Shown one piece after another: positions 823 through 25,696 of a stretch of 26,036 bases of DNA (position 1 is the first letter of the stretch; each line of letters opens with the position of its first letter). This DNA comes from a virus, in IMG/VR virus record IMGVR_UViG_3300009079_000109, positions 1 through 26,036 of that record; one strand, written 5' to 3'. The translations under genes and the position numbers were made by a program. The notes under the pieces were generated by a model that saw nothing but the letters and a program-made list of their open reading frames with translations, searched no databases and was not told the origin of the DNA.

Positions 823-1503
823 TTAAATTACACTTAAAGGTTTAATAGGTATGTCTCTTAAAAAGAAACTTTTTGTGTTAGTTTTAGCTAATGCATATCC
901 CAGTGCTAAACCTTCTCCATTTCCTACTCCTGTGTATACGTTTTGTTTATTAGTACTATTAAATTCAAATATTGTTCTTACTTTTTCTAGTTCATTTAGT
1001 ACACTACTAACTTTTTTATCGAAAGGAAATATAAATATTCTCTCAAGTAGCGGTACTATTTTGTTTAAATTAATTTTATCTGATTCTATTAAGTCAAGTA
1101 TGTTGTTAAAATATCCATACTCAAGGTAAGGACTATTTAAATTATAAAGTTCTTTTGCTGATTCTATTCCTTCCCAATTGCTGTTGGTATAAATGTGATT
1201 AATTTTTTTTGCATCAAAGTCTAATAACGCACGGTAGAAATCTACATTTAACCTCCCTACATCTAAATATAAAACTGGAGTTTGTTTTTCTTGAGTTAGT
1301 AAATAAGTTAAAGTGAATTTATCAAAATACCTAAAAGTAGAATATTCATAATTTCTAATATCAGCAAAAGGTAAAATTTCCTTAATCTTTTGTACTGCGT
1401 CGGTATAAACTGTTATATTAGCTCGGCCTTCAAGTAGTAGATAATCACGTAGTAAAATATTTACGTACTTTTCTCCTGCAGCAATTATTAATATATTATT
1501 CAT
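823..1503 (-). CDS. Possible GT-A type glycosyltransferase-like protein
   Basis: 226 residues. The N-terminus MNNILIIAAGEKYVNILL is a beta-strand/loop start of nucleotide-sugar-binding type. A segment around residues 59-83 (FDKF, then TPVLYLDVG) resembles the GT-A pattern in which a hydrophobic strand ends in a metal-binding DxD; here it reads D81-V-G83, so the second aspartate is absent. The C-terminal part has no motif I recognise. The gene starts within the stop region of the primase gene (ATG at 1503 touching its TGA) and ends four bases before the nuclease start, so it is co-transcribed with DNA-metabolism genes, which does not obviously fit a sugar transferase. It may be inactive or a different Rossmann-like protein. 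The glycosyltransferase call is tentative. Confidence 0.4.
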   Translation of the reverse strand: MNNILIIAAGEKYVNILLRDYLLLEGRANITVYTDAVQKIKEILPFADIRNYEYSTFRYFDKFTLTYLLTQEKQTPVLYLDVGRLNVDFYRALLDFDAKKINHIYTNSNWEGIESAKELYNLNSPYLEYGYFNNILDLIESDKINLNKIVPLLERIFIFPFDKKVSSVLNELEKVRTIFEFNSTNKQNVYTGVGNGEGLALGYALAKTNTKSFFLRDIPIKPLSVI

Positions 1504-2426
1504 TACAGGTCTAATTTATGTAACATTAAACCACTTAAATCTAATTCTTCAGCAGATTGAACATAATTAGTAAAAGTTTTAAAGCCCATTTCAGATGGAT
1601 CTTTATCTGGAAGGTTAATGAGAAATACCCTTTTACCTTGATTCAAAAATTTCTCTCCTATTTCTATTGCTTTATCTCTAGCATCTGTATCTAAAGCAAC
1701 GTATATGTCCTTAACATTACTTGTTAAGATTTTCTTATATAATGAAGTAGAGATGCTCTTTCCCAAGATAGGAATAGCATTCCTACGTATAGCCATAGCG
1801 TCAAATACACCCTCGCAAAGTATTATAGGTTGGTCCCAATTGATAAGGTTCTCAAAAAATATTATGTCTTTAGAAGCTTCTGGGTTTTTATATTTAAAGT
1901 AATTTCCGTCATAAGTTCTTGCAACAAAGAAATTGAGTTGATTGGATCCAGAATAACTCGGAATAATAACTCTTCCTCCATAGTCTCCAGTTGTTGCATA
2001 TCCAATCCCATATTTAATAAAATCATTATCGGAAAGTCCTCTCTCATATAAATACTTTTTAACTATGTTTGCAACAACCGAAGTACTAGAAGCCGAATGT
2101 AGCGGTTGGTACTCTTTCGGGAGTTCTATTATAGATAGACCGTTATATTCTGTAAATGTACCTTTAGGTAGGTACTTTAAAATAGTAGCAGCTATATCCT
2201 TAGGGGTCTTTAACTGTTTAAGTAAAGAACGTATGGATTGACCTCGAGTTTGACATACCCAACACTCCCAGAAGTTTTTACCTTCCTCGTTAGTAGCCAT
2301 ATTAATCTCAAGCTTAGGTTTGCGATGATTGCAAAAGGGACAATGAAAAGCATAGTTATCTCTAGCTCTCTTATGACTTTTGCCTAAAATATTTTCAATA
2401 GATCCTAAAAGGAAAGTGTAATCCAT
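1503..2426 (-). CDS. DNA primase, T4 gp61-like (DnaG-type zinc finger plus TOPRIM)
   Basis: The 307-residue protein makes RNA primers for lagging-strand synthesis, in T4 together with the gp41 helicase. Domains seen: an N-terminal zinc-binding region with CPFC (C29, C32) and CWVC (C55, C58); a middle DnaG-like region; and a TOPRIM domain with LCEGVFDA (E205) and ALDTDA (D246, D248), the acidic metal-binding residues. T4 gp61 is 342 residues, so this is slightly short but complete. The start at 2426 follows a 50-base gap that holds a GTTG-N20-TATCTT promoter match ending 21 bases from the ATG. Two downstream genes overlap or abut, suggesting a short replication operon. Confidence 0.88.
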   Translation of the reverse strand: MDYTFLLGSIENILGKSHKRARDNYAFHCPFCNHRKPKLEINMATNEEGKNFWECWVCQTRGQSIRSLLKQLKTPKDIAATILKYLPKGTFTEYNGLSIIELPKEYQPLHSASSTSVVANIVKKYLYERGLSDNDFIKYGIGYATTGDYGGRVIIPSYSGSNQLNFFVARTYDGNYFKYKNPEASKDIIFFENLINWDQPIILCEGVFDAMAIRRNAIPILGKSISTSLYKKILTSNVKDIYVALDTDARDKAIEIGEKFLNQGKRVFLINLPDKDPSEMGFKTFTNYVQSAEELDLSGLMLHKLDL

Positions 2427-2447: not shown

Positions 2448-2477
2448 AAGATAAGAACATATTATTTAATAGACAAC
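2448..2477 (-). promoter_or_regulatory. Candidate promoter for the primase operon (GTTG-N20-TATCTT)
   Basis: Minus strand: GTTG at 2477-2474, 20 bases, TATCTT at 2453-2448, followed by GT. The G of GTTG is the last base of the upstream gene's TAG stop. The arrangement resembles the Bacteroidota vegetative promoter (TTG at -33, TAnnTTTG at -7). A transcript would start roughly a dozen bases upstream of the primase ATG. Confidence 0.55.
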
Positions 2478-2677
2478 TATATCTCGTTATTTTGTAGAAG
2501 GTCACCGATTGCAGCTGATACTGATTGGTGTAGTAGTGTTTTGTTATCTATATCTAAGTAGTCAGATAGTTTATTAGTAATAGCTTCAGCAAGTTTAAGT
2601 ACATCCTCATCAGAAAGGTCAAGTTGCTCTCTTACTACGTATTTTTTATTTTCTAATATAATTTTTGATAACTTCAT
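2477..2677 (-). CDS. Small protein with MKLSKIILE leader; candidate internal capsid protein
   Basis: 66 residues, family unknown. The first nine residues, MKLSKIILE, are identical to those of the next gene upstream (2689-2961) although five of the nine codons differ synonymously. The rest is helical and acidic with no recognised motif (LSDEDVLKLAEAITNKL, then LLHQSVSAAIGDLL). In T4, internal head proteins carry an N-terminal capsid-targeting peptide cut by the prohead protease after a hydrophobic-x-Glu motif; I-L-E at residues 7-9 fits. I infer, without proof, a mature protein starting at N10 packaged in the head. It is last in the 4127-2477 gene group; its TAG stop directly joins the primase promoter. 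Confidence 0.6.
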   Translation of the reverse strand: MKLSKIILENKKYVVREQLDLSDEDVLKLAEAITNKLSDYLDIDNKTLLHQSVSAAIGDLLQNNEI

Positions 2678-2688
2678 AATATTAAATT

Positions 2689-2961
2689 TTAACTGACATC
2701 TATTTCAAAAGAATCGGCTTCGATTCCTTTTAATTTTAAACCATCAATAACTTTTGATACTTCGTCATCGTGGTAATAAGCTCTTGTAGGTACTTCAACT
2801 CCTGTTGTCTTTTGAATAAATTCAATAGCCTTTTGGTGATCATCACCTCTTTGCTTTTCCCCATTGAAACTAATTGAATATAGTCTGGCACCATTTGTGT
2901 AGGTTAAACTAACCTTCAAATTGTCGTTCCATCCTTCAAGTATAATCTTACTTAGTTTCAT
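2689..2961 (-). CDS. Small protein with MKLSKIILE leader; candidate internal capsid protein
   Basis: 90 residues, no family recognised. It shares the nine-residue leader MKLSKIILE with the next gene and nothing else obvious. After the leader comes GWNDNLKVSLTYTNGARLYS, a likely beta-hairpin, then a charged alpha/beta region ending FEIDVS. The I-L-E at 7-9 fits the hydrophobic-x-Glu cleavage rule of T4-type prohead proteases, which would release a mature protein starting at Gly10. Its ATG overlaps the stop of the small basic gene upstream (ATGA), with AAGGA-like bases just before the ATG as a plausible ribosome site. Packaging in the head is an inference from the leader. Confidence 0.6.
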   Translation of the reverse strand: MKLSKIILEGWNDNLKVSLTYTNGARLYSISFNGEKQRGDDHQKAIEFIQKTTGVEVPTRAYYHDDEVSKVIDGLKLKGIEADSFEIDVS

Positions 2962-3095
2962 TTTCCTTGTCCTTTGTAAGCCTTTTGATAATGTTTACTA
3001 CCTTTCAGCTTTGATGTTTTAGACTTAGCATGAATGCCTGGTCTCTTTTTTTTAGGGCTACCTACGTAGTTACCTAAAGTTAATCCTTTTGCCAT
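2958..3095 (-). CDS. Very small lysine-rich protein (45 residues)
   Basis: A complete 45-codon frame: ATG at 3095, TGA at 2960-2958. The product contains 12 Lys and 1 Arg, and no Asp or Glu; its core reads SPKKKRPGIHAKSKTSKLKG, followed by SKHYQKAYKGQGK. Its start overlaps the end of the upstream gene by 16 bases and its stop overlaps the next ATG (ATGA), so it closes what would otherwise be a gap of about 120 bases in a tightly packed operon. This supports it as a real gene. From memory, similar GxHAKSK...KxYRGQG-type small basic proteins occur in other aquatic phages, but I cannot confirm it here. Strong positive charge suggests nucleic-acid binding, perhaps with packaged DNA. Confidence 0.65.
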   Translation of the reverse strand: MAKGLTLGNYVGSPKKKRPGIHAKSKTSKLKGSKHYQKAYKGQGK

Positions 3096-6837: not shown

Positions 6838-8391
6838 CTAGAGCTTTGACTTCAGCTCATCTATTTGTAACTGCTGCTCTTTAATAGCATTTATTAATAA
6901 CGCGACTATTTTATCATAACGAACTGCCTTGTATCCGGTATCTCTATCGACTACTACTTCTGGCAACACTTTTTCGATTTCTTGAGCAATAACACCAACA
7001 TCGTGGCCGCTATGGCTAGAATCACTATTCCAATCAAATTCATATCCTCCTATTTGATTTATTTTATCTAATGCATTACTTAGAGGAGTAATGTTATCCT
7101 TTAATCTTTCATCTGAAGAGTAGTATGCAGTTATGTCTCCTGTAGCTACTATTTCTCCTGTTGCTCCTGTTGCAGCAACTCCTACTCCTAAACTATCAAA
7201 CTGTACGTCTGAGCCAGTAGTTAATCCTCCATTGAAGTTAACTGTAGATGCAGTCGTAGCAAATGATGCTGTTGTAGAGTTAGCTACTGTACCGTCTATA
7301 TTAGTAGCAAGTACATAAGAAGCTGAAGTAGCATTATCTGCTTGGTCAATACTTCCTGATATGGTTGCTTGTATAGCTGACGCTGTAAGTGCACCTATTA
7401 TGTTTGTGTTACCGGTAATAGTAGTAGCACCATCTATGTTTACACTTCCTGTAAATGTATGAGTGTCATCTGCCGAGTTACCAAACTTGGTTGAACCAGA
7501 TTCTAGTATTACGGATGAAGTAATATACTCTGTGTTAAACTCTTGAGCAGTTAAGGTTCCAGTTACGGTTAGGTCTCCTGTTAAAGTATCACTGGTATTA
7601 AGTAGATATGTTGATGCTACACTAGATGATAAACTAGTAATTTCAGTATTTATAGAGGATGAAAGAGCAGTATCAGCTGCTGTATACGCTATTGTTAATG
7701 CGGATGATGATGCATTAAGTTCAACATCGGTCGTAAAGGTACTATCTAAACTACTAGAAAAACTTTCTATATTTGTAACTCTAGTACTAAATGATCCTGA
7801 GTCGGTCTGTAGTTGAGTTATTTCTCCTTCATGTGCTGAAGCGGTTGCGTTTAGTGCATCGATAGAATTCCTTAAATTAGGTACTCCTATAACAGAAAGT
7901 GCTCCTACTATATTAGCATTACCGTCAAGGTTTAAACTGCCAGTAAATTGATGAACATCATCAGCAGAATCTCCAAATTTAGTTGAACCAGATTCAAATA
8001 AAATAGAAGACGATATTAATTCAGATTTAAACTCTTGTGCTGTTACAGTTCCACCTACTACTAAATCTCCTGTAATTCCGCTACTACCTGTAACTTTAAA
8101 AATACTATTTACTGTATCGAAAATAAAATTAGCAGATCCAGTAAGGGTGGCATCGTCACCTGTAGGGCTATCTCCTTTTTTAAACTGTATGAATCCTGTT
8201 TCACCTTTTGGAGGATCGATAGGAAATTGAATAGAAGCGGAAGGGTTAGCAGAACTGGAATCGTAATGAAATCTATGTAAAACTACTTCACTACCATCTA
8301 CAGACGCTGAGTAGAAAAACTCGGTAAAGTTTATATCTAATTCATCCTGAGTTAGGGGAGTTCCTTTTGTGCCTCTTAATGTTATTGCCAT
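6838..8391 (-). CDS. Tail fibre protein with C-terminal S74 intramolecular chaperone
   Basis: 517 residues. Residues 1-30 (PLTQDELDINFTEFFYSAS) form an attachment-type N-terminal module shared with the next S74 gene. The middle is Ser/Thr/Gly-rich beta-repeat, typical of trimeric fibres, with two related segments at residues 108-166 and 272-336. Residues about 425-517 are a peptidase S74 chaperone: SSDERLK (425-431) contains the serine and lysine of the self-cleavage dyad, followed by DVGVIAQEIEKVLPEVV and a helical end (IKEQQLQIDELKSKL) likely to form a coiled coil. In this family the domain helps trimerise the fibre and then cuts itself off. It probably binds the host surface. It is the last structural gene before the GIY-YIG gene. 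Confidence 0.88.
   Translation of the reverse strand: MAITLRGTKGTPLTQDELDINFTEFFYSASVDGSEVVLHRFHYDSSSANPSASIQFPIDPPKGETGFIQFKKGDSPTGDDATLTGSANFIFDTVNSIFKVTGSSGITGDLVVGGTVTAQEFKSELISSSILFESGSTKFGDSADDVHQFTGSLNLDGNANIVGALSVIGVPNLRNSIDALNATASAHEGEITQLQTDSGSFSTRVTNIESFSSSLDSTFTTDVELNASSSALTIAYTAADTALSSSINTEITSLSSSVASTYLLNTSDTLTGDLTVTGTLTAQEFNTEYITSSVILESGSTKFGNSADDTHTFTGSVNIDGATTITGNTNIIGALTASAIQATISGSIDQADNATSASYVLATNIDGTVANSTTASFATTASTVNFNGGLTTGSDVQFDSLGVGVAATGATGEIVATGDITAYYSSDERLKDNITPLSNALDKINQIGGYEFDWNSDSSHSGHDVGVIAQEIEKVLPEVVVDRDTGYKAVRYDKIVALLINAIKEQQLQIDELKSKL
7384..8070 (-). repeat. Internal duplicated module in the fibre protein
   Basis: Two copies of an approximately 60-residue unit, at protein residues 108-166 (bases 7894-8070) and 272-336 (bases 7384-7578). 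Both read GDLxVxGTxTAQEF, then SS followed by ESGSTKFG, SADD, FTGS and NxDG, ending with IxGAL. The intervening part is Ser-rich and unlike either. This is a lengthening duplication within a fibre shaft. Confidence 0.7.
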
Positions 8392-8392
8392 C

Positions 8393-9052
8393 TTACTTAT
8401 TTTCTAAAATAGATATTCTCTTTTCTAATTCAGCTAACTTTATATTTTGCTCTTTAACTGCTTCAATTAATACAGGTACAATACTAGCGTATGAAACACT
8501 AAGATAGCCTTTTTCATCTTCTGATACAACTTCTGGAAGTACTTTCTGTACTTGCTGAGCTATTACGCCAACTTGTCTATCAGAGATTCCTTCATTCCAA
8601 TTAAAGTATACTCCTTCAACTTTATTAATTTTTTCTAATGCGTTATCTACTACCTCTATATTGCTTTTTAATCTTTCATCTGATGATTGTACTACTGTTC
8701 CAGATGCTCTTATGCTTCCAGATACATCTAGTCTGTAGCTCAATGTTTCAGTAGATTCATCTACACCTACACCTAAACTTCCGCTTCTGTCTACATATAC
8801 TCCTTCTCTTGTTTCAATTGCAGATGAACCAGAAAATATTACAACTCTTCTATCTGATCCCTGATTTTGTAATCCTTTTACTAAGTTAAAAGTAAAAGAT
8901 CCACTGTTAACTGGAACTTCGGTAGACTCTGGGTAGTATAAAGTAACTGTCTGTCCATCTGTACTAGCTGAATAGAAGTATGCTCCAAAATTATTATCTA
9001 ATTCTGAGTATGTTAATGGTGTACCTTTTTCAGCTCTAAATGTTATAGCCAT
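8393..9052 (-). CDS. Short fibre-associated protein with S74 chaperone domain
   Basis: 219 residues; a compact relative of the downstream fibre. Residues 1-30 (PLTYSELDNNFGAYFYSAS) match the other gene's N-terminus closely, and residues 123-219 are a full S74 domain with SSDERLK (123-129), QVGVIAQQVQKVLPEVV and a C-terminal heptad-like helix (AELEKRISILENK). Between them lie only about 90 residues, so after self-cleavage the mature product would be around 120 residues. It could be a short tip, a fibre adaptor, or a chaperone supplier. Stop and start are one base apart from the neighbouring fibre gene, so both are made together. A GTTG-N20-TATCTT match occurs inside this gene at 8501-8530; it is probably fortuitous because it encodes conserved S74 residues. 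Confidence 0.82.
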   Translation of the reverse strand: MAITFRAEKGTPLTYSELDNNFGAYFYSASTDGQTVTLYYPESTEVPVNSGSFTFNLVKGLQNQGSDRRVVIFSGSSAIETREGVYVDRSGSLGVGVDESTETLSYRLDVSGSIRASGTVVQSSDERLKSNIEVVDNALEKINKVEGVYFNWNEGISDRQVGVIAQQVQKVLPEVVSEDEKGYLSVSYASIVPVLIEAVKEQNIKLAELEKRISILENK

Positions 9053-19190: not shown

Positions 19191-19600
19191 TATTGTTCAA
19201 AATTTAAGACTACTTCATCATCTATATTAGTATCTCTAACTTTATATTTCATAGCAAATTGTACTGTATTAGAGTCTGGGATTCCGTTTGTAGTTATTTC
19301 TGTAGGTTCAACAGTAGGAAAATAATAAGCTAAATCTGCTTTTATCTGTGCATCTATCTGTTTTACTTTATCTTCGGTTAGTTGATCAAAAAGTAAGTTT
19401 CGAAGTCCGTTGCCAAAGTCTACGTTTAGGTACCTTTCTCCTCTAGAAGTTAAAAAAAAATTTATCAAGTTAGTCTTTATAGCTTCACTAGTAGTAAAAG
19501 TAGAGTTAAATACAGCTGTACCTGAGAAAGGTAGTTTAACTCCTACTGCTTTTCTAGGTTGTAAATCTAACGGGTTTATTTTTTTAACTTCAAATGCCAT
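19190..19600 (-). CDS. Baseplate wedge protein gp25
   Basis: 136 residues (T4 gp25 is 132). Pattern of the gp25/lysozyme-like baseplate family: KLPFSGTAVFNSTFTTSEAI, FFLTSRGERYLNVDFGNGLR, then LFDQLTEDKV. The R-G-E-R segment with nearby Asp/Asn is the family hallmark. The protein is structural in T4, attaching gp6 and seeding the sheath; despite the lysozyme label no wall-cleaving role is implied. It lies between a small helical protein and gp6, in the same order as in many contractile-tail clusters. Confidence 0.9.
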   Translation of the reverse strand: MAFEVKKINPLDLQPRKAVGVKLPFSGTAVFNSTFTTSEAIKTNLINFFLTSRGERYLNVDFGNGLRNLLFDQLTEDKVKQIDAQIKADLAYYFPTVEPTEITTNGIPDSNTVQFAMKYKVRDTNIDDEVVLNFEQ

Positions 19601-20007
19601 TAAGCTCCTGATCTTGTTTTATCTTTTTCTATCGATTTATCTAATATTGCTTTTGCTTTTTGAGGATCGAATCCGGGTATAGTACTTAGATCTAATCCTG
19701 CTCCACCGCCGCCTGTTATCTGCCTTTGTGCAAAGTTTGGTGCTTTCGTTGAATCGAAATTACCTATACTTCTAAAATCCTCATTGGTCATATCTGCTTT
19801 TGTAGCAGATAACATTTCATCTAAGGATTTTCTACCGGTAGCTGGAGTAGACCATTTAAGGTTGCTCCCTTTAGGTTCAGGTATAGCTTGCATTTTAGTT
19901 GGAGTAGAAGCTATTTTAACAGCTTCATTCATTACTTCTTGTAACTCCTCCTTAACAGCAGCTCTTACTTCTTCACGAATTATCTTACGTAGTTGGTCGA
20001 GTTTCAT
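19600..20007 (-). CDS. Small helical virion-associated protein (function unknown)
   Basis: 135 residues. It opens with a charged amphipathic helix, MKLDQLRKIIREEVRAAVKE, followed by EELQEVMNEAV, then a Pro/Ser/Thr-rich linker and a central LDEMLSATKADMTNEDF, and ends in IPGFDPQKAKAILDKSI. No family name can be given. The opening recalls the MKLSKIILE leader of the small proteins at 2477-2961, and I-R-E (residues 10-12) would fit a hydrophobic-x-Glu protease site, although here it could simply be a helix. The ATG is preceded by a TATTTATATAT element at 20011-20019. Confidence 0.6.
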   Translation of the reverse strand: MKLDQLRKIIREEVRAAVKEELQEVMNEAVKIASTPTKMQAIPEPKGSNLKWSTPATGRKSLDEMLSATKADMTNEDFRSIGNFDSTKAPNFAQRQITGGGGAGLDLSTIPGFDPQKAKAILDKSIEKDKTRSGA

Positions 20008-21188: not shown

Positions 21189-22348
21189 TATTCTGTGTAT
21201 ACTTTTTTAGATAGTAACTCTTTTAAAAGGTTTCTTAACTGAGGAATAATAGGTAGTACAGCATTACTTGTTGCGATCATTTTAGCTACGAAAGCAGGAG
21301 GTGCGGGTGGTGCTGTGGCCATACCTTTTACAATAGTTTCAAATTGAGATAAATGATCGTCCATCCAAGCTATTGAAGTTTCACCTAAAAGTACAGGCTC
21401 TTTTTCTTTAAAGGCTTGTGTACCTAAATATAGTTTCTTAGCATCTAATCCTACATAATCATCAGCATCTATACCTATAGCTTTTGCGTTTAACCCAATG
21501 CCTTCGGTAGCAGATATAAAAGCACCTTCTTCTTTAGCGTTAAAATAAAGTCTACCAGAGTTAATAATAACCTGGTTACCTTTAAACTGATCTGCTTTCT
21601 CTGGCTCTTCTTCCCAAGCATCTCTTTTTTCATGAGCTTGTTTCAATTCAAAAGTATGATCAGCACCAATGTATACAGAAGATGGATCTTCATTTATATC
21701 TTCTACTATAGGATCGATAGCGTTAGGAGGTTCTTTTAATCCATTAGATAGTATGATATAAGGACTCCCGTTATTACTATCATCGGTAAATGTATTTAAA
21801 GTATGTTTAGTCCCTCCAAACCTTATTTTATTACCATGCCTGCCTTCTACTATAACGTCCCCTGGAAATATCTGCAGTGGGGAAGTAGCTTCTGATTCTT
21901 CAAAATCTTCTCCTAAATCTGCACCACTTCTAGCTTGATCTTCAAATTGAATAACATCAGGATAAGCATTGTGATGTGGGTGATTCCAGAGCGGTACAGC
22001 TTTTGTCCAGTATATTTTTTTTGCAGTAGTTACTTCTGTTCTTTCTTCTGATGGAAGAGTTTGGAGTACTACTATTTCGTTCTTAAGAGGAGGTCTAATA
22101 ACACCTCTTTCTCCGCAATATGCAAATTTTAAAGTCTGTAGTTCATCTTCTACAGAACTCATATCTAATTCACGGTAGAATACTCCATTAAGAGCTTGAG
22201 TCTTTCCTAATGTTTCATAATCAGGATGAGAGTCGTCTAATATAATATCAACAACTCTACCAAAATTAGTTCCTCCTGTTGAGCTGCCCGCGGTTGATGC
22301 GATTGCTCCTCCTCTACTGGAATTACGAAGAGTGTTTCTAATCGCCAT
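21188..22348 (-). CDS. Baseplate hub/spike protein, gp5-like, without lysozyme domain
   Basis: 386 residues. An N-terminal OB-fold-like segment (NFGRVVDIILDDSHPDYETL, later NEIVVLQTLPS) is followed by IFPGDVIVEGRHGNKIRFGG, the characteristic gp5 entry to the beta-helix. Then come strands with INSGRLYFNAKEEGAFISA, TEGIGLNAKAIGIDADDYVG and LDAKKLYLG, an intertwined beta-helix spike. A helical C-terminus follows. T4 gp5 is 575 residues and has a lysozyme domain between the OB fold and the helix; none is seen here, as in cyanophage gp5 proteins. The protein is expected to sit at the tip of the tail tube and puncture the outer membrane. It overlaps the acidic protein upstream by 11 bases. Confidence 0.82.
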   Translation of the reverse strand: MAIRNTLRNSSRGGAIASTAGSSTGGTNFGRVVDIILDDSHPDYETLGKTQALNGVFYRELDMSSVEDELQTLKFAYCGERGVIRPPLKNEIVVLQTLPSEERTEVTTAKKIYWTKAVPLWNHPHHNAYPDVIQFEDQARSGADLGEDFEESEATSPLQIFPGDVIVEGRHGNKIRFGGTKHTLNTFTDDSNNGSPYIILSNGLKEPPNAIDPIVEDINEDPSSVYIGADHTFELKQAHEKRDAWEEEPEKADQFKGNQVIINSGRLYFNAKEEGAFISATEGIGLNAKAIGIDADDYVGLDAKKLYLGTQAFKEKEPVLLGETSIAWMDDHLSQFETIVKGMATAPPAPPAFVAKMIATSNAVLPIIPQLRNLLKELLSKKVYTE

Positions 22349-24595: not shown

Positions 24596-25212
24596 TATTC
24601 TACAATAAATTTTTGAGAAAAGTCATCTTTAGTAAGTGATTCCATTCCTGCTTCCCAAAAAACCTTCATATAAACAGTAATAGTATCGCCTTTAATAGTA
24701 GGAGGAAAAGGTCCAAGAATACGTCTAGTAAAAAGAGAACCGTTTTCTTCTGAAAAGTAAATATTAGTATTCTGAGCTATATTAATCTCTGTTCCTGCAT
24801 ATTGAGGAAGGTTAATATCAACAGTAGAAGATGGAATAGGTACCCATGATGAAGTATAATTTCCAAAAAACGGATTATATAGTGGTTGCTGTATGACAAG
24901 ATCTTTACCTAAAATCCAAGATGTATCACTATCAAATTTAGCTTCCACTACTGATCTACCATTGTACCTGTAGCTATCATCTACCGGAGTAGCCTCTACA
25001 TCAATATAGAACCACGGTAAATAATCTCCATCCCAATTTAACTCTAGATGGTAAAATCCATTAGCATCTGCTTCAACAGGAAAAATCATTTGAGCATCAC
25101 AACCGCCGGGGCAGGTTTCCGGGGCGATAGGGTCTATAGTACAAGATGCAAGAGCGAAGCTCGCCGCGCAAACGCGCGCAAGTCGCACCGCGATATATCT
25201 AAGCTTCTTCAT
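24595..25212 (-). CDS. Phage-encoded lipoprotein with GC-rich signal region
   Basis: 205 residues. The N-terminus MKKLRYIAVRLARVCAASFA followed by LASC is a lipoprotein signal peptide with lipobox L-A-S-C (Cys24 lipidated). The +2 residue is Thr, which suggests the outer membrane. The mature part is beta-rich (FYHLELNWDGDYLPWFYIDV; FFGNYTSSWVPIPSSTVDIN; RRILGPFPPTIKGDTITVYM) with no recognised family. Bases 25101-25200, coding the signal peptide and first mature residues, are 60% GC in a genome that is about one-third GC, with GCG, CGC, GCC and CCG codons. I chose the ATG at 25212 over the one at 25236 because it gives a canonical signal peptide; it overlaps the GIY-YIG gene by 14 bases. A role in superinfection exclusion or receptor masking is possible. 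Confidence 0.72.
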   Translation of the reverse strand: MKKLRYIAVRLARVCAASFALASCTIDPIAPETCPGGCDAQMIFPVEADANGFYHLELNWDGDYLPWFYIDVEATPVDDSYRYNGRSVVEAKFDSDTSWILGKDLVIQQPLYNPFFGNYTSSWVPIPSSTVDINLPQYAGTEINIAQNTNIYFSEENGSLFTRRILGPFPPTIKGDTITVYMKVFWEAGMESLTKDDFSQKFIVE

Positions 25213-25696
25213 TAGTATCCATTTTATAAGGTTCACCTATTCTTTCTACTACCGCCTTAGCTTCTTCAACAGATATATTAAAGAACTCTTTCTTATTATT
25301 TACCCTAAAGCCGTTATCTTGTAAGTACTTATGTACTTGCTTTTCTACATCATGAGCATTGAAGCAAGGTAAAGCCCATTCTACAACGAAGTCTTGGGCT
25401 ACACCCGTGGCAGAGTTTATCTGCTTTACTCTCTCAGAAGGTTTATTCTTAGTAAAGCCTATCTTACATAGACCAGGCATTGTAGTATTAGTTAATACGT
25501 ATACCCATTGACAGCCAGTAACACCTTTTGGTATCTGGATCTTCTTAGGTCTATTAGTATAGTAAGTAACATCATCCCATCCATCTCCTTTATCACTGGT
25601 AGTAAGAGTAAAGTAAGAAGCATCAGTATCTGTCTGATCTTCAGAGACTTTGATTAGACCTTGAGCATATTCTTCGGTAATTCTTTTTATTCCCAT
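25199..25696 (-). CDS. GIY-YIG protein of T5orf172/MUG113 type
   Basis: 165 residues. The C-terminal ~100 residues carry the family pattern: QWVYVLTNTTMPGLCKIGFT (GIY at 65-68, YIG variant K-I-G at 78-80), PSERVKQINSATGV (R89), ALPCFNAHDVEKQVHKYLQ, then KKEFFNISVEEA (E137 expected catalytic). The first ~60 residues are an extra N-terminal region without a match. Such proteins are widespread in phages, where they are thought to cut or bind DNA; the specific target is unknown. A Bacteroidota-like promoter and a weak AAAGG lie before the ATG at 25696. Its end overlaps the lipoprotein start. Confidence 0.78.
   Translation of the reverse strand: MGIKRITEEYAQGLIKVSEDQTDTDASYFTLTTSDKGDGWDDVTYYTNRPKKIQIPKGVTGCQWVYVLTNTTMPGLCKIGFTKNKPSERVKQINSATGVAQDFVVEWALPCFNAHDVEKQVHKYLQDNGFRVNNKKEFFNISVEEAKAVVERIGEPYKMDTNEEA

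Follow-up and report, generated by a model that had tools for sequence, protein, structure and literature searches.

Head-packaged proteins that are injected are, to date, known mainly from T4 and giant phages. According to PMC9026906, T4 gp21 cleaves behind L/I-x-E, and the internal protein IPIII needs no more than its first ten residues to be packaged, of which residues 4 and 7 contribute to targeting and residues 8 and 10 to processing. In the giant phages SPN3US and phiKZ, according to PMC5694885, ejection proteins carry propeptides that are removed by a related prohead protease, and the N-terminal 15 residues of the diverged paralogues gp53 and gp54 are identical. Here we describe a nine-residue N-terminal peptide, MKLSKIILE, that precedes unrelated protein bodies in a marine T4-like phage and its relatives, and for which the open-licence literature in PMC yielded no paper. 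Judged from sequence, this leader is very probably a capsid-targeting propeptide of the T4 type.

Two window genes with one leader

The window, by which we mean the whole stretch of DNA analysed, is an entire IMG/VR record of 26,036 bases and represents a fragment, about 26 kb long, of the genome of an uncultured marine T4-like phage. Its genes include a T4-like set for tail and baseplate, with gp25-like and gp6-like wedge proteins, along with a nuclease and a DnaG-type primase; no tRNA genes were found anywhere in it, and the phage collection held no near-identical match to it. Among isolates, Flavobacterium phage immuto (Immutovirus) comes nearest, its primase and that of the window sharing 63% identity. 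Since, in addition, the gp23 proteins of immuto and of the related contig G005 have 72% identity, the window is placed in a distant group of T4-like phages, the cultured member of which infects Flavobacterium.

The tail proteins at 6838-8391 and 8393-9052 (minus strand) have C-terminal parts (SSDERLK...) that resemble, by eye, tail-spike intramolecular chaperone domains, and the protein at 25199-25696 (minus strand) resembles, again by eye, a T5orf172/GIY-YIG domain protein. A baseplate-cluster protein at 19600-20007 (minus strand) starts with MKLDQLRKIIREEVRAAVKEEL, a repeated N-terminal type that also has I-x-E. Genes similar to the 45-aa basic protein listed in Table 1, which is possibly DNA-binding, are present in the related contigs G006 and G031 and in immuto (protein 186).

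Table 1. Coordinates of the leader genes, their parts and their neighbours in the window
Feature	Position	Strand	Remarks
Family A protein, 66 aa, MKLSKIILENKK...	2477-2677	-	ORF
Family B protein, 90 aa, MKLSKIILEGWN...	2689-2961	-	ORF
Leader MKLSKIILE of the 66-aa protein (family A)	2651-2677	-	DNA ATGAAGTTATCAAAAATTATATTAGAA; predicted cleavage after Glu9
Leader MKLSKIILE of the 90-aa protein (family B)	2935-2961	-	DNA ATGAAACTAAGTAAGATTATACTTGAA; predicted cleavage after Glu9
Body of the 66-aa protein	2477-2650	-	Predicted flexible stretch, then two helices (residues 23-40, 46-62)
Body of the 90-aa protein	2689-2934	-	Confident predicted small alpha/beta domain, beta-beta-alpha-alpha-beta
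DnaG-type primase	1503-2426	-	Next gene downstream of the leader genes; position beside the leader genes kept in related contigs
45-aa very basic protein, KKKRPGIHAKSKTSKLK..., without leader	2958-3095	-	Directly upstream of the leader genes

The two leader genes are as an earlier note, made from the sequence of this DNA, had described them, with a common MKLSKIILE start and unrelated bodies. The synonymous codon differences that it listed, at Lys2, Leu3, Ser4, Lys5 and Leu8, were also recovered, and 8 of the 27 leader bases differ. Its view that the pair did not arise by a recent duplication of the leader DNA is borne out by codon usage, both here and in leader pairs within contigs, which rules such a duplication out. 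A signal peptide was ruled out by eye, the hydrophobic run being just 3-4 residues long and ending in Glu.

In the alignment of family A (21 homologues), the leader is the best-conserved part. Structure models of both proteins place residues 3-9 in a low-confidence helix, followed by a flexible stretch in the 66-aa protein, whose model is weak (mean pLDDT 70, pTM 0.47), and by a confident small domain in the 90-aa protein. A Foldseek search with the latter model for relatives among solved structures gave 419 matches at E ≤ 10 and none at E ≤ 0.001, and a second look with VIA-align reached a best Z of only 3.4, indicating no clear solved relative. A viral structure library returned one match (E 2.5e-4), an uncharacterised protein of Tenacibaculum phage Gundel_1, and immuto protein 177 contains a homologue of this domain behind a different N-terminus. 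PHROGs and Pfam scans of families A and B returned noise only, and a PADLOC search gave no match up to E 0.1; in the phage collection, no relatives of family A were found beyond noise, and none of family C.

The leader on unrelated bodies

A degenerate back-translated leader pattern matches the window exactly twice, against 0.00 matches expected from 100 shuffles, and a slightly looser pattern matches the 20 long relatives 28 times, against 0 for the reversed control pattern. Relatives of the two window proteins were retrieved from viral contigs at 8 and 67 loci; together with the window, these contain 124 distinct ORFs (crude longest-ATG calls made by script) with at least 6 of the 9 leader residues, which fall into seven unrelated body clusters. 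Searching IMG/VR by leader DNA alone returned at least 220 matches and at least 167 distinct proteins, so that the sharing reaches well past the two genes of the window. Among the matches with proteins of 30 or more residues there are at least 18 body families, found through the leader DNA and not through the body, of which at least 11 have three or more members; among the matches listed, seven of the 18 are singletons, some perhaps arising by chance. One leader-pattern match has an in-frame stop. A short N-terminal peptide common to unrelated bodies, which in a T4-type propeptide would have about 7-19 residues, is found in families A and B of the window and in the MKLSxIILE families of IMG/VR. 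As a control, non-homologous proteins from eight genomes or contigs were compared, and residues 2-9 agree at 6 or more of 8 positions in 34 family pairs versus 0-2 at six internal offsets, a part of this N-terminal sharing being due to signal peptides such as MKKLFLIL.

The earlier proposal that the peptide itself is conserved holds across these leaders. Ser4 is encoded by TCA, AGT, TCT, TCC, AGC and TCG, and leader pairs within contigs use the same codon at 512 of 1118 shared residues, a freedom that points to selection on the peptide. The DNA upstream of leader genes is A-rich, and this, together with the location of the repeat at gene starts, would fit a start that is conserved at the level of DNA or RNA and not of the peptide, for instance in translation initiation, in regulation or as a recombination hot spot. 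Such an origin is extremely improbable, as synonymous codons vary freely, including the six for Ser4, and no conserved upstream motif beyond A-richness was seen. Leaders of different families inside one contig are not more alike than leaders from different contigs (0.526 vs. 0.543 shuffled, with 498 of 500 shuffles reaching the observed value), and no co-evolution with a phage-specific core is therefore seen, which counts against the propeptide reading.

Family J contains a P-loop domain with a Pfam match to Zeta toxin (E 3e-10; 40.3 bits vs. a cut-off of 22.3), for which PADLOC gave only E 0.014-0.019. Family D has a glycine-rich loop that by eye resembles that of a protein kinase, a reading for which PHROGs gave one weak match (E 0.007) and Pfam no match. 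The other leader families scanned, A and B included, showed no convincing relative.

Leader ends, head genes and other labels

Both window leaders end in I-L-E. Among distinct N-termini without Glu at residue 9, 71 of 75 have Glu at residue 10, with I/L-x-E preserved; family B, for example, has endings IILE, IILNE and IILSE, and family D has IILE beside LGE and ILKE. Across all families except A, counting loci that were not picked by their own leader, I/L-x-E is located within the first 14 residues of 106 of 115 distinct proteins (93 of 102 by subtraction of family B, which was also a query), whereas among the contigs' other genes the figure is 102 of 567. This is a fairer count than a tally of 240 of 251, which is partly circular because some of its loci had been chosen with the leader pattern; the P1 and P3 columns are fixed by the alignment pattern. 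The nine proteins without the motif comprise seven with the family F domain inside a larger protein, one with the family G domain similarly placed, and one immuto homologue with V-N-E. At loci L007, L009, L019 and L065, a protein that resembles nucleotidyltransferases and starts with MIALYPGAFKPPHRGHFEVVK has the family F domain fused to its C-terminal part.

The gp21 protease, gp22-like scaffold and gp23 are not among the genes of the 26-kb window, because the window is a fragment. The gp21-like protease that the earlier note had suggested looking for is thus missing here and present in related contigs: a gp21-type S77 protease is encoded in 6 of 20 related contigs and, within an overlapping set of 20 longer contigs with leaders, in 11, and gp23 in 4 of the 20 related contigs. 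The 9 of 20 long leader-bearing contigs without an S77 match may be fragments or chance pattern matches. The relatives' protease aligns with T4 gp21 and retains its GELxHP and GxSSRG stretches, which presumably hold the catalytic His and Ser. The gp23 presequence of the relatives contains several I/L-x-E sites and ends in I-V-A/S-E-A, which we take to be the point of cleavage.

Contig G006 contains both window families together with gp21, a gp22-like scaffold and gp23. A leader gene is located directly between gp21 and gp22 in G031, G032 and G006; the slot proteins of G031 and G032 are homologous (E 3e-19), and that of G006 is not clearly related. In G002 and G005 the same slot, between protease and scaffold, is occupied by a protein whose leader is a different one (FDLRKFITEN or FNLRKFLAEN). 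This leader type, F-D/N-L-K/R-x-F-L/I-x-E-N-K, was observed at 21409-21990 of G002, at 34800-35204 of G005 and in immuto proteins 179, 194 and 195.

In the 177-kb relative G022, 8 of 232 ORFs start with MK/MI-L/I and a hydrophobic-x-E, all of them between 25.6 and 69.4 kb, and all leader genes are within the structural module. One of the eight is the MKLDQLRKIIREE gene, whose window counterpart sits in the baseplate cluster, and MKL...I-x-E alone is therefore no proof of a head protein. With module limits drawn after the leader positions were known, and ORFs shorter than 60 aa left out, I/L-x-E starts are found in 15 of 33 genes of the head/cargo module vs. 14 of 179 outside (p 6e-7), in 8 of 24 vs. 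13 of 167 when MKL-type starts are removed (p 0.0013), and in 15 of 36 vs. 19 of 178 in immuto (p 3e-5).

The leader might alternatively be an uncut short docking helix for another phage structure, such as the baseplate, tail tube or membrane, consistent with the predicted helix in both models and with the related MKLDQLRKIIREE start in a baseplate-cluster gene. We consider this quite improbable, since it leaves unexplained both the joint shift, by one residue, of the Glu (between 9 and 10) and of the I/L that precedes it by two (71 of 75) and the leader genes between protease and scaffold.

Even with a cleaved propeptide, the cargo could consist of prohead core or minor head parts that aid assembly and are not injected effectors. 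The gp21-gp22 slot proteins and one leader family, E (99 aa), are indeed within the head gene cluster, and T4 IPIII also affects head assembly, according to PMC9026906. The bodies are nevertheless patchy and exchangeable, and with the Zeta-toxin-type P-loop (Pfam E 3e-10) they look more host-directed, making a purely structural role possible but somewhat unlikely.

Cargo bodies also occur under other labels. In immuto, the N-termini of the homologues of families B, D, E, G and L are MKKSQLREIIRKE, MISIYNILKE, MRKLVNE, MKKSELVKLIKE and MRLLELLRE; all five still have a hydrophobic-x-Glu near the start, the body being kept and the label changed. Family H gives a sixth immuto match, which is weak (E 0.006) and internal to a large protein. 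In Pelagibacter phage HTVC008M, the homologue of the Zeta-type protein begins with MIPFILKEG. In the same phage (L295, 7953-13109), P-loop, nucleotidyltransferase-like and 5'-nucleotidase-like genes, named by eye, are close together as in the window's relatives, which suggests an old conserved gene group of marine T4-like phages. Further repeated N-terminal classes are MKKSQLxxLIxEV, FDLKKFLxENKLT and, in immuto, MKKQILSEQFxRMQKLAGIITES; the immuto proteins at L102 (16676-17140) and L103 (25061-25456) have the common start MKKQILSEQFxRMQxLAGIITES.

Proposed route and comparison with known systems

In the proposed mechanism, the first nine or ten residues would attach unrelated proteins to the prohead core during head assembly, and a gp21-type (S77) protease would then cut after the Glu of the I/L-x-E site. 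The cleaved bodies would be left loose in the head with the DNA, and would pass from there into the next host by injection; the two window genes would represent two cargos of a larger exchangeable set. From the sequences we infer core binding, cleavage and packaging of the leader proteins. Injection into the host is likely by analogy with T4, and injection followed by action on the host we infer more weakly. The capsid-targeting part of the earlier note's hypothesis is accordingly well supported, with the shared leader, the I/L-x-E Glu at residue 9 or 10, gp21, gp22 and gp23 in relatives, the leader genes beside gp21 and their confinement to the structural module all in its favour. Action against host defences, its other part, is a possibility only, neither window protein matching PADLOC, Pfam or PHROGs above noise.

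A broader proposal is that a marine T4-like clade loads at least a dozen swappable, unrelated proteins, including the Zeta-toxin-type P-loop and kinase-loop-like bodies, for injection by way of one removable peptide, so that the injected set can be read from N-termini, with MKKSQLxxLIxE and FDLKKFLxENKLT doing the same job. We regard the chances of this proposal as evenly balanced. If the reading of the leader is right, a nine-residue signature would allow proteins that uncultured marine phages may package in the head and inject to be listed directly from metagenomes, and many unannotated short proteins would become testable effectors. The cultured relative immuto, for which no virion proteome was found in the open-licence literature of PMC, is open to a direct proteomic test.

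Immuto resembles the window's phage group in its gene order round the primase and head genes and in encoding relatives of the B, D, E, G and L cargo families, but these proteins start with peptides other than MKLSKIILE. The giant phages SPN3US and phiKZ differ in that their propeptides are mostly longer than 100 residues and are shared between paralogues. T4 gp24 starts with MAKINELLRE, ending in L-R-E at residue 10, presumably the gp24 cleavage point, and is very like leaders such as MRLLELLRE; gp24 is, however, a shell protein, and the family scans gave no relation of any body to it.

The closest likeness is to the capsid-targeting sequence of T4 IPI, IPII and IPIII, an N-terminal peptide of about ten residues that starts with MK, ends in hydrophobic-x-Glu and precedes unrelated bodies. 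It extends to the gp21-type protease and gp22-like scaffold encoded in relatives of the window phage. The peptides themselves differ, being MKTYQEFIAE in T4 ipII and ipIII and MKLSxIILE here, with the Glu at residue 9 or 10. Compared with the T4 internal proteins, the leader proteins comprise at least 11 multi-member body families, and their virion location and cleavage are predictions from the genes. The mechanism is already known from T4; new to us are the leader sequence and the breadth of its cargo.
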